From assembly GCA_903905455.1 (NCBI GenBank), contig CAIVGN010000046.1, positions 62,001 through 126,000 on the forward strand: a stretch of DNA of 64,000 nucleotides, in the 5' to 3' direction. The DNA comes from an uncultured Archangium sp. Its GTDB lineage: Bacteria > Myxococcota > Myxococcia > Myxococcales > Myxococcaceae. Positions within the stretch are counted from its first letter, which is position 1; each line of letters opens with the position of its first letter. Under the pieces are notes generated by a model. It did not search any database. It worked only from the letters and a program-made list of their open reading frames with translations, and had not been told where the DNA came from. Position numbers and translations under genes: made by a program. Positions 47,596 to 50,793 of the stretch are shown here, in pieces.

Positions 47596-49068
47596 GTGCT
47601 GATCGAACGGCAGAAACGCGCGTCGCGGGTTCGTTTCCGGCATCCGGTGCGCGTGGTCACGCTCGGAGGGCAACAGCGGGTCATCCGCACGTTGACCGCC
47701 AACGTCTCTCACGACGGGCTCTTCCTGCTCATGCCCGAACCGCTGCCGCATGGGACGAAGGTGGCGCTCTCGCTCGAGGCAGGGGGGCGCGCGCTCGCCC
47801 TGGCCCAGGCCGAGGTGGTGTGGGACCGGACGGACCAGAGCGAACTGCCGGACCACGCGCCGGGGTGCGGGGTGCGTTTCACCGAGTTCATGCACCCGCG
47901 AGCGAAGGAACTGGTGAACTACCTCGTCGACAACCTCGACCAGGGCAGGCCGCTGGCCCTCGCGCCGCCTGAACGACGTTGGCGCAAGGCGTTGCCGTGG
48001 GTCGCCGCTGCGGCCGCCGTGGCCACGGTCATCGTCATCGCGGTGATTTCCCTCTCCGCCCTGGGCGGCGAGGGGCAGGGTGAGGACGCGAGCGAACTCG
48101 AGGACGCCGAGGCCGCGATCGCCGCTGAGCGCAGAGAGGTCGTGCCCGCCAGCGCCTCCGCCGTCCCGACGCTCGCTCCCTCGGATTCACCCGCACCGGG
48201 CGCGTCCAACTCGCACGTCGAGGAGCCCGTCGCCGCCGCACCCGTCGCCGCCGCACCTGTCGCCGCCGCACCTGTCGCCGCCGCACCTGTCGCCGCCGCA
48301 CCTGTCGCCGAGCCTGTCGCTGCCGCACCCGTTGCCGCCGAACCCGTCGTCGCTGCACCTGCCTCCGTGCCTGACGCCGTCGGACCTGTCGCCACCGCAC
48401 CTACTGCCGCGCCTAAAGCTGCCGCACCCGTCGCCGATCCTGTCGTCGTCGCACCCGTCGCCGCACCCGTTGCCGCCGCACCCGTTGCCGCCGCACCTAC
48501 TGCCGCGCCTGAAGCCGTCGGACCTGTCGCCGAGCCTGTCGCTGCCGCACCCGTCGCCGTCGCACCCGTCGCCGTCGGACCCGTCACCGCCGCACCCGTC
48601 ACCGCCGCACCCGTCACCGCCGCACCTGCCGCTGCCGGCCCTGTCGCCACGCGCAAGGGCATCGCCTCCGAGGTCCCCGCGGCACGGGGGGCCACCGCGT
48701 CGATCGCCCAGCCCAAGGCGACCCCGACCCGGCGAGACGCCGCGGCGCGCTCCGGCCCCGAGCGCGGCACCGTGCACCTCCCCTCCGGAGCCGCGTCCAA
48801 GCTGACGTGGGTCCTCTCCGGCACCGAGTTGCGCCTCTCCCCTGACGGCAACGTGAGCCGCGCCTTCCTCCTCGCCAGCCCCGCGCGCGCGGTCTTCGAT
48901 CTCGATGGTCGAGCGCCCGACCGCAGTCGCCAGCTCGCCGGGTCGATCCCCCACGCGACCGGCGTGCGGCTCGGCAAGCAGGGCAAGGGCACGCGCATCG
49001 TGGTCGATCTCGACCGTGCCCCGAGCCGCTCGAGCCAGGACGGCTCCGCGCTCGTGCTCTCGTTCTGA
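47596..49068 (+). CDS. PilZ domain, membrane span, Ala/Pro/Val repeat and AMIN domain fusion
   Basis: 490 residues. Residues 1-115 are a PilZ domain with RVRFR (11-15) and NVSHDG (37-42), the RxxxR and NxSxxG motifs for c-di-GMP. One membrane span follows at about 134-156 (VAAAAAVATVIVIAVISLSAL). About 165-370 is a low-complexity Ala-Pro-Val region with PVAAA repeats, and from about 393 an AMIN-type beta domain (LRLSPDGNVSRAFLLASPARA, GVRLGKQGKGTRIVVDLD) like those of PilQ and AmiC. Topology implies a cytoplasmic c-di-GMP sensor tied to a periplasmic wall- or pilus-binding domain. GTG 47596 lies 11 nt after TAGCGG. Confidence 0.88.
   Translation: MLIERQKRASRVRFRHPVRVVTLGGQQRVIRTLTANVSHDGLFLLMPEPLPHGTKVALSLEAGGRALALAQAEVVWDRTDQSELPDHAPGCGVRFTEFMHPRAKELVNYLVDNLDQGRPLALAPPERRWRKALPWVAAAAAVATVIVIAVISLSALGGEGQGEDASELEDAEAAIAAERREVVPASASAVPTLAPSDSPAPGASNSHVEEPVAAAPVAAAPVAAAPVAAAPVAAAPVAEPVAAAPVAAEPVVAAPASVPDAVGPVATAPTAAPKAAAPVADPVVVAPVAAPVAAAPVAAAPTAAPEAVGPVAEPVAAAPVAVAPVAVGPVTAAPVTAAPVTAAPAAAGPVATRKGIASEVPAARGATASIAQPKATPTRRDAAARSGPERGTVHLPSGAASKLTWVLSGTELRLSPDGNVSRAFLLASPARAVFDLDGRAPDRSRQLAGSIPHATGVRLGKQGKGTRIVVDLDRAPSRSSQDGSALVLSF
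48226..48300 (+). repeat. Five tandem 15-bp units encoding PVAAA
   Basis: The unit is CCCGTCGCCGCCGCA or CCTGTCGCCGCCGCA, repeated five times without gaps, followed by diverged versions to about 48636. It encodes the periplasmic linker of the PilZ-AMIN protein; copy number may vary by slippage without changing frame. Confidence 0.9.
48580..48624 (+). repeat. Three tandem 15-bp units encoding PVTAA
   Basis: CCCGTCACCGCCGCA three times in a row, within the same linker and likely derived from the PVAAA unit by one base change. Confidence 0.85.
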
Positions 49069-49103: not shown

Positions 49104-49871
49104 GTGGAGCTCTCGCCCCTGACCATCGCCGGCCTCTCCCTCGTCGCGCTCGTGGCGGGGCTGGTCGACGCCATTGCCGGGGGCGGCGGGTTGCTCACGG
49201 TGCCCGCGCTGTTGGCGACCGGCATCCCCACGCCCATGGTCTTCGGCACCAACAAGGGCTCCGCAGTCTTCGGCAGCGGCGCGTCGTTGCTGCGCTTCTG
49301 GCGGGCCGGCCTGGTGGACGTGCGCCGGGCGCGGCTGCTGTTCCCGCTGGGGTTCCTCGGCTCGTGCGCGGGGGCGCTGCTGCTGACGGTCCTCGACCCG
49401 AAGGTGCTCCGGCCGTTGGTGCTGGTGCTGCTGGTCGCGGCGGGCTTCATCGTGGCCTTCGTTCGTCCCCCGGCCGTCCGCGAAGGGGGGCCGGGGGCGC
49501 GTGCCGGGCTGAAGACCGCCGTGCTCGCGTTGCTCATCGGGGCCTACGACGGCTTCTTCGGTCCGGGCACCGGCACGTTCCTGATCATCGGCTTCGTGAT
49601 GCTGCTCCACCTCTCGCTGCAGCACGCTTCGGCGAACGCCAAGGTGGTGAACTTCGCGTCGAACCTCGCGGCGATGCTCTTCCTGGCGTGGAAGGGCCTG
49701 GTGATCTGGCAAGTCTCGCTGCCCATGGCGGCCGGTCAGTTCATCGGGGGAACCATCGGCGCGCACCTCGCGGTGAAGGGCGGCGACACGCTGGTGCGCC
49801 GGGTGGTGCTCCTGGTGGTCTTGGCGCTGGTGACGCGACTCGGTTACGACGTGCTCCATCCCACGAGCTGA
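49104..49871 (+). CDS. TSUP (TauE/SafE) family anion transporter
   Basis: 255 residues, about eight membrane spans. The signature VDAIAGGGGLLTVPALLATG near the start and its second-half counterpart GAYDGFFGPGTGTFLIIGF are diagnostic of the 4-toluene sulfonate uptake permease family, which moves sulfite, sulfonates or other sulfur-containing anions. TAAGAG is 9 nt before the GTG start. The downstream selenoprotein begins 12 nt after the stop, with AAGGAG between, so both should be on one transcript. A role in sulfur or selenium handling is an inference. Confidence 0.92.
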   Translation: MELSPLTIAGLSLVALVAGLVDAIAGGGGLLTVPALLATGIPTPMVFGTNKGSAVFGSGASLLRFWRAGLVDVRRARLLFPLGFLGSCAGALLLTVLDPKVLRPLVLVLLVAAGFIVAFVRPPAVREGGPGARAGLKTAVLALLIGAYDGFFGPGTGTFLIIGFVMLLHLSLQHASANAKVVNFASNLAAMLFLAWKGLVIWQVSLPMAAGQFIGGTIGAHLAVKGGDTLVRRVVLLVVLALVTRLGYDVLHPTS

Positions 49872-49882
49872 AGGAGCACCCC

Positions 49883-50125
49883 ATGGCGAAGGTCACGATC
49901 ACCTACTGCACGGCCTGAGGCTACAGGCCCAAGGCTGCCCGGGCGGCAGCTGCGCTGAAAGACGAACTCGATTTGGAGGTGGAGCTGGTGCTCGGCTCGG
50001 GCGGGATCTTCGAGGTGGCCGTGGACGGCCGCGTGGTGGCGAAGAAGCAGCTCGGCTCCTTCCCCTCGGACAAGGACGTCGTCGACGCGGTGTCGGTGGC
50101 GTTGGAGGGCCTGGGCCCGCAATGA
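49883..50125 (+). CDS. SelW-like (Rdx family) selenoprotein with UGA-encoded selenocysteine
   Basis: 80 residues if TGA at 49916-49918 is read as selenocysteine. Residues 1-13 read MAKVTITYCTAUG, giving the CxxU redox motif (Cys9, Sec12) after a beta strand, exactly as in SelW/SelT/SelH proteins. The frame then continues: KAARAAAALKDELDLEVELV, GSGGIFEVAVDGRVVAKKQ, GSFPSDKDVVDAVSVAL, all matching the Rdx fold with its typical Gly-Gly-Phe-Glu-Val. AAGGAG precedes the ATG by 6 nt. A hairpin starts 15 nt after the TGA. The proper stop is TGA at 50123-50125, followed directly by a terminator. Likely a thiol-redox protein; partner unknown. Confidence 0.85.
49916..49950 (+). promoter_or_regulatory. 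Bacterial SECIS-like element for the SelW-like gene
   Basis: After the TGA, GCTGCC (49934-49939) pairs with GGCAGC (49945-49950) around a 5-nt loop CGGGC. The loop starts 21 nt after the TGA and has a G in its second position, within the usual limits for bacterial selenocysteine insertion hairpins. Confidence 0.65.
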
Positions 50126-50127
50126 AA

Positions 50128-50155
50128 AAGGCCCGCGAGGCGACTCGCGGGCCTT
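50128..50155 (+). terminator. Intrinsic terminator, bidirectional
   Basis: A 12-bp perfect stem AAGGCCCGCGAG with CTCGCGGGCCTT around a GCGA loop begins 2 nt after the selenoprotein stop and serves both this transcript and the convergent lipoprotein gene. A short A-run precedes it, giving a T-run for the minus strand. Confidence 0.85.
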
Positions 50156-50178: not shown

Positions 50179-50682
50179 TCAGCGGGCGCAGACGAGCGAC
50201 GCGGGCGCGTCGGGCTGCTGCGCGCGGGCGATCAGCTGGCTGTGCGCCTCGGCCGTGAGCTCGACGACCGTCCAGTGGCCGTCATCACCCAGGCCGAGCG
50301 CGCTGTTGGGCGTCAGCTTCTTCTCGGTGATCAGCTGCTTCAGCTCGGCGCGGGCGATGATCTGCTCGGCCTCACCCAGCTGGTTGAAGCGCGAGTTGTC
50401 GAGCATCGCGGTCAGCTGCTTGAGCGAGTCGATCTGATCGGTGAACGGGAAGTTGTCCCCGAGGATCACGACGAGCAGCGCCTGGATGGGAAAGGTCGCG
50501 ACGTCGATCACGAAGGTGAAGGGCAGCAGGAAGACGCCCGTGGTCTTGCGATCGATGTACGACGGGCGGCGCACCGTGATGCCGAGGAATGCGCGATCGA
50601 CGAGCCGGGACATCATGCAGCCAGTGGAGAAGAGGACGGTCACCATGGCCATGGCCAGGGTACGGAAGAGGCGGTGTTTCAT
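50179..50682 (-). CDS. Small lipoprotein, YceK/YidQ-like
   Basis: 167 residues from ATG 50682 with AAGGAG 5 nt upstream. The signal peptide ends in FSTGC (lipobox). The mature part has GVFLLPFTFVIDVATFPIQALLVVILGDNFPF, a pattern of a P-x-x-x-x-I-D-x-x-x-x-P loop like YceK/YidQ lipoproteins, then a helical half (LGEAEQIIARAELKQLI). Function unknown. It ends near a terminator shared with the selenoprotein operon. Confidence 0.8.
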   Translation of the reverse strand: MKHRLFRTLAMAMVTVLFSTGCMMSRLVDRAFLGITVRRPSYIDRKTTGVFLLPFTFVIDVATFPIQALLVVILGDNFPFTDQIDSLKQLTAMLDNSRFNQLGEAEQIIARAELKQLITEKKLTPNSALGLGDDGHWTVVELTAEAHSQLIARAQQPDAPASLVCAR

Positions 50683-50793
50683 GAGGGCTCCTTGTCGGCG
50701 AAGGCTTCGGAGTGATTGTGAGAGCCGGATCGAGGTGGGATCAAGCAAATCGCCCACGATTCTGGGGTGTCACACAGGCTGCTACAGGGTGTT

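Follow-up and report, generated by a model that had tools for sequence, protein, structure and literature searches.

A myxobacterial SelW-like (Rdx) selenoprotein gene with an in-frame TGA very probably decoded as selenocysteine

The analysed window, a 64,000-nucleotide stretch of DNA from an uncultured Archangium sp., carries on its plus strand a SelW-like (Rdx) selenoprotein gene (49883..50125, terminal TGA stop included), which encodes 80 amino acids with selenocysteine (Sec) as residue 12. The open reading frame starts with the ATG at 49883, passes an in-frame TGA at 49916..49918 (plus strand), placed as the Sec12 codon by alignment with homologues, and ends at a second stop, TGA, at 50123-50125. 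With the internal TGA read as Sec, positions 49883-50122 of the plus strand give the product MAKVTITYCTAUGYRPKAARAAAALKDELDLEVELVLGSGGIFEVAVDGRVVAKKQLGSFPSDKDVVDAVSVALEGLGPQ, in which the SelW-like motif is C9-x-x-U12 (Cys9 codon at 49907-49909, plus strand). The Shine–Dalgarno sequence AAGGAG, seen in the sequence at 49871..49876 (plus strand), lies 6 nt 5' of the ATG, in agreement with the good ribosome-binding site proposed in a preliminary description of this DNA. Standard gene calling would end the gene at its eleventh codon and probably overlook it, as tends to happen with this selenoprotein family. A genome search showed it to be the sole Rdx gene of its genome, and a comparison with the plasmid collection gave no match.

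Immediately upstream is a gene for a TSUP/TauE-SafE family transporter (49104..49871, plus strand; PF01925, E 3.3e-48). The SelW-like gene begins 11 nt past the TSUP stop codon, the last base of which is shared with the Shine–Dalgarno sequence, and the two genes are likely co-transcribed here. The preliminary description had placed the SelW-like gene second after the transporter; it is in fact the very next gene. The pairing suggested there as a link to anion uptake does exist at this locus; it is, however, lineage-restricted, since a search of mostly 1.2-1.5 kb of upstream DNA per sequence found TSUP upstream of Rdx in 16 of 90 related sequences, mostly belonging to the genus of the window or to one of a few others, and such an adjacency argues only weakly for a functional link. 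The genes upstream of Rdx differ among lineages (for example RlmH-like or cysteine-synthase-like, named by eye from the sequence), so that there is no shared operon context. Further upstream, at 48226-48648, about 30 copies of a 15-bp tandem repeat encode an Ala/Pro/Val linker (VAAAPVAAAP) inside an open reading frame ending at 49068.

Downstream of the second stop codon lies a strong terminator hairpin (50128..50155, minus strand; 12-bp stem, z -4.9), as had been described. With its T-tract on the minus strand, it serves chiefly to terminate the convergent gene 50179-50757 (minus strand). We therefore set it aside as the SelW-like gene's own terminator; possibly, the hairpin is used in both directions.

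The product belongs to the Rdx family. Pfam PF10262 (Rdx) matches residues 3-70, spanning the TGA, with E 9.3e-15 and 55 bits (cut-off 22.6), and TIGR02174 (SelT/W/H) is passed with 50.3 against a cut-off of 34.2, so that the protein match across the TGA greatly exceeds what chance would give. The NCBIfam equivalog NF041051 SelTWH_Campy gives 74.3 bits, below its cut-off of 88, and the product is therefore related to SelTWH_Campy while representing a different equivalog. Its closest sequence matches in the PDB are MIEN1 and bacterial SelW-related proteins. An AlphaFold2 model built from 24 relatives (pLDDT 83), in all 24 sequences of which Cys9 and residue 12 are invariant, predicts a strand at 4-8 followed by a helix at 15-29, which places CxxU after the first beta strand. 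When this model was submitted to Foldseek, 23 of the 23 top matches were Rdx/SelW structures, the bacterial ones ranking best and MIEN1 and mouse SelW coming next. The model thus assigns to the product the thioredoxin-like Rdx/SelW fold. Translation, the Pfam match and the fold model agree with the 80-residue CxxU protein initially proposed, and the coherence of the frame on both sides of the TGA is borne out by the Rdx match across it and by protein conservation on either side.

The internal TGA is conserved far beyond this genome. An Rdx gene was found in 87 of 145 genomes of the order, with exactly one TGA inside it in 86 of them, and the same holds for the Rdx matches of 97 of the 99 Rdx-bearing Myxococcota genomes searched. 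Among 105 aligned locus matches, 102 have TGA at the identical codon; the remaining three rows have TGC and represent a Cys paralogue in genome G086 and, twice, genome G038, whose locus is covered by two overlapping entries. A third Cys form, with TGT at the Sec position, occurs in the more remote genome G159. TGA thus recurs at this codon in dozens of homologues, and the Cys versions align with it; this is the comparison the preliminary description had proposed. In G086 (L076, G086:C44:127685-128259) the Rdx genes are arranged in tandem, one with Sec (TGA) and one with Cys (TGC). In the Cys-only genomes G038 and G159, searches matched neither SelA nor SelB, and no tRNA-Sec scored above threshold. 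This pattern agrees with the published observation that Sec-containing organisms seldom, if ever, have Cys homologues (PMC1794560).

Within the order, the presence of Sec-Rdx tracks that of SelA (84:2 against 44:15, Fisher p 3e-5, phylogeny ignored). Two genomes of the order, G050 and G124 (80% and 87% complete), have Sec-Rdx without a SelA match, with SelB present in both. At the phylum level, G155 has Sec-Rdx and a tRNA-Sec above threshold, with no SelA or SelB match. Since the Fisher tests and the codon permutations given below disregard phylogeny, their p-values are inflated.

The genome of the window (8.6 Mb in 251 contigs, 98% complete), the nearest named relatives of which are Myxococcaceae and Archangium-type assemblies, possesses the machinery for Sec insertion. 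It has SelA (E 4.5e-139), SelB, SelD and one tRNA-Sec above the Rfam threshold with the anticodon UCA (selC), so that all four of the genes for which a search had been suggested were found. The same genome encodes a second selenoprotein outside the window, FdhA (L119, G000:C133:141536-143407), with an in-frame TGA within CNRT-TGA-HAP, the classical UHxP site, and a hairpin with a GGUCU loop lies 3' of this TGA.

The preliminary description also proposed a SECIS-like hairpin, which we locate at 49933..49951 (plus strand) by in-register pairing and synonymous covariation in relatives. Its stem comprises 7 bp (49933-49939 with 49945-49951), its loop is CGGGC (49940-49944), and it lies 21 nt past the TGA. 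Published rules for bSECIS elements call for a loop of 3-9 nt with G in its first two positions, a stem of 4-16 bp, a distance of 16-37 nt from UGA and an MFE <= -7.5 (PMC13188914). The hairpin agrees with them, having a 5-nt loop with G at position 2, 7 bp, a distance of 21 nt and, in its 21-nt form, an energy of -11.8 kcal/mol; the loop-G and energy rules hold in 67 of 67 distinct sequences. Folding of the single sequence gives no gain over dinucleotide shuffles (z about -0.2 to +1), which is uninformative because the region is GC-rich. We consider the SECIS established by conservation and covariation in relatives and not by folding energy.

Of the 67 distinct sequences, 55 have every stem position paired and 7 are one pair short. 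Paired stem cells amount to 94.7%, compared with 90.3% (sd 0.4) when codons were shuffled among sequences sharing the amino acid, which preserves the protein, and 0 of 2000 such permutations, which ignore phylogeny, did as well. At two of the pairs both partners are third codon positions, and these covary: in one, Ala GCT goes with GCA and GCC with GCG (p 3e-7), while in the other a codon ending in A goes with T and one ending in G goes with C (p 3e-8), phylogeny being ignored in both values. Among 11 Sec homologues at the phylum level, the stem sequences differ, with 6-7 of 7 pairs in register and loops that fit xG[G/U]xx. Three distant relatives (family f3) have the stem shifted by one base, at about -11 to -12 kcal/mol, with the loop GGUCU in the same place. 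The remote Cys form of G159 has 0 of 7 stem pairs at this register. The proposed hairpin is thus upheld, its register persisting in most of the phylum, where compensatory changes fall at synonymous third positions.

Taken together, the computational checks suggested at the outset, on the sel genes, the homologues and the SECIS with its covariation, all favour the initial reading of a SelW-like selenoprotein with a CxxU motif, masked by an in-frame TGA. Judging from the sequence, the internal stop is very probably decoded as Sec, and we hold it as nearly certain that this is a genuine myxobacterial SelW-like (Rdx) selenoprotein gene, whose product is probably a small thiol/peroxide redox protein. 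We suggest that SelB-GTP-Sec-tRNA(Sec), once docked on the hairpin 21 nt downstream, would place Sec at UGA-12. In the resulting 80-residue thioredoxin-like protein, Cys9 and Sec12 are located between strand 1 and helix 1, as in SelW, which makes a reversible selenenyl-sulfide likely, and the two residues probably alternate between this and the reduced form. Membership of the family and fold does not by itself imply a redox reaction; the redox cycle and a thiol/peroxide substrate are suggested by CxxU together with the known biology of SelW/Rdx proteins.

If the TGA were a true stop, the locus would be a decayed Rdx pseudogene or would contain a sequencing error for TGC or TGT. The failure of single-sequence SECIS folding to exceed shuffles would fit this, but the TGA of the 97 genomes mentioned above, the protein conserved on both sides of it and the SECIS covariation speak against it; conservation across genomes has already largely refuted such a stop, to which we leave the smallest chance of all. 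Readthrough of the TGA by a near-cognate tRNA (Trp or Cys) in place of Sec insertion seems hardly more probable: we found no point in its support, and it is opposed by the dedicated Sec machinery and the second selenoprotein of the genome, by a SelB-type hairpin with its G[G/U] loop, and by the occurrence of Cys forms where the Sec machinery is missing.

The third alternative concerns function and would have the selenoprotein serve the neighbouring TSUP specifically in selenium or sulfur anion uptake and not in general thiol/peroxide redox. It draws on the 11-nt gap, on the overlap of the Shine–Dalgarno sequence with the TSUP stop and on the 16 related sequences sharing the pair; against it stand the other 74 of the 90, which have no detectable TSUP in the upstream DNA searched, and the diversity of TSUP substrates. 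We regard this role as improbable, though less so than either of the former explanations, and prefer the SelB-dependent selenoprotein with a general redox role.

Bacterial SelW-like selenoproteins with a CxxU motif have long been described in Geobacter, Desulfotalea and others (PMC1794560), Geobacter sulfurreducens and Desulfotalea being among the examples (PMC1794560, PMC13188914), and they are given elsewhere as a bacterial selenoprotein family (PMC13188914) with 35 listed (PMC5029168); the present gene therefore adds to a known family. In the part of the literature covered by our search, we found no treatment of Myxococcota SelW-like selenoproteins and nothing relevant on myxobacterial selenoproteins in general. 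The mildly new part is Sec as the apparent default Rdx form in Myxococcota. We see an even chance that Sec was this default ancestrally and that Cys replaced it upon loss of Sec decoding, with G038 representing a state after the switch that retains a SECIS fossil. Indeed, the Cys (TGC) Rdx of G038 (L016/L118) has a SECIS-like stem with 7 of 7 positions paired and the loop GGUCU; however, 7% of synonymous recodings of G038 match the 7 pairs (3.7% with a G[G/U] loop as well), so that the fossil is only a lead. Through this gene the selenoprotein family gains a well-supported member found across a phylum, the phylum-wide SECIS set with synonymous covariation offers a clean natural data set on the requirements of SelB, and the Cys-only genomes provide a test case for how Sec gets lost.

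With the bacterial SelW-like selenoproteins (PF10262) the gene shares the Rdx domain, CxxU with Sec as the second redox residue, the in-frame UGA and a Sec-decoding host, whereas its SECIS sequence and its first helix, rich in Ala and Arg, are particular to the lineage. Animal selenoprotein W and MIEN1 (PDB 2npb, 2ljk) have in common with the product the Rdx fold and the position of the redox motif, with identities of about 27-32% in the fold alignment; in eukaryotic SelW, unlike the bacterial case, the SECIS sits in the 3'-UTR. The Cys-type bacterial Rdx proteins (PDB 2fa8, 3dex, 2ojl, 2obk, 2p0g) possess the same fold (TM about 0.8), and in the sequence alignment 2fa8 has CxxC where the product described here has CxxU.
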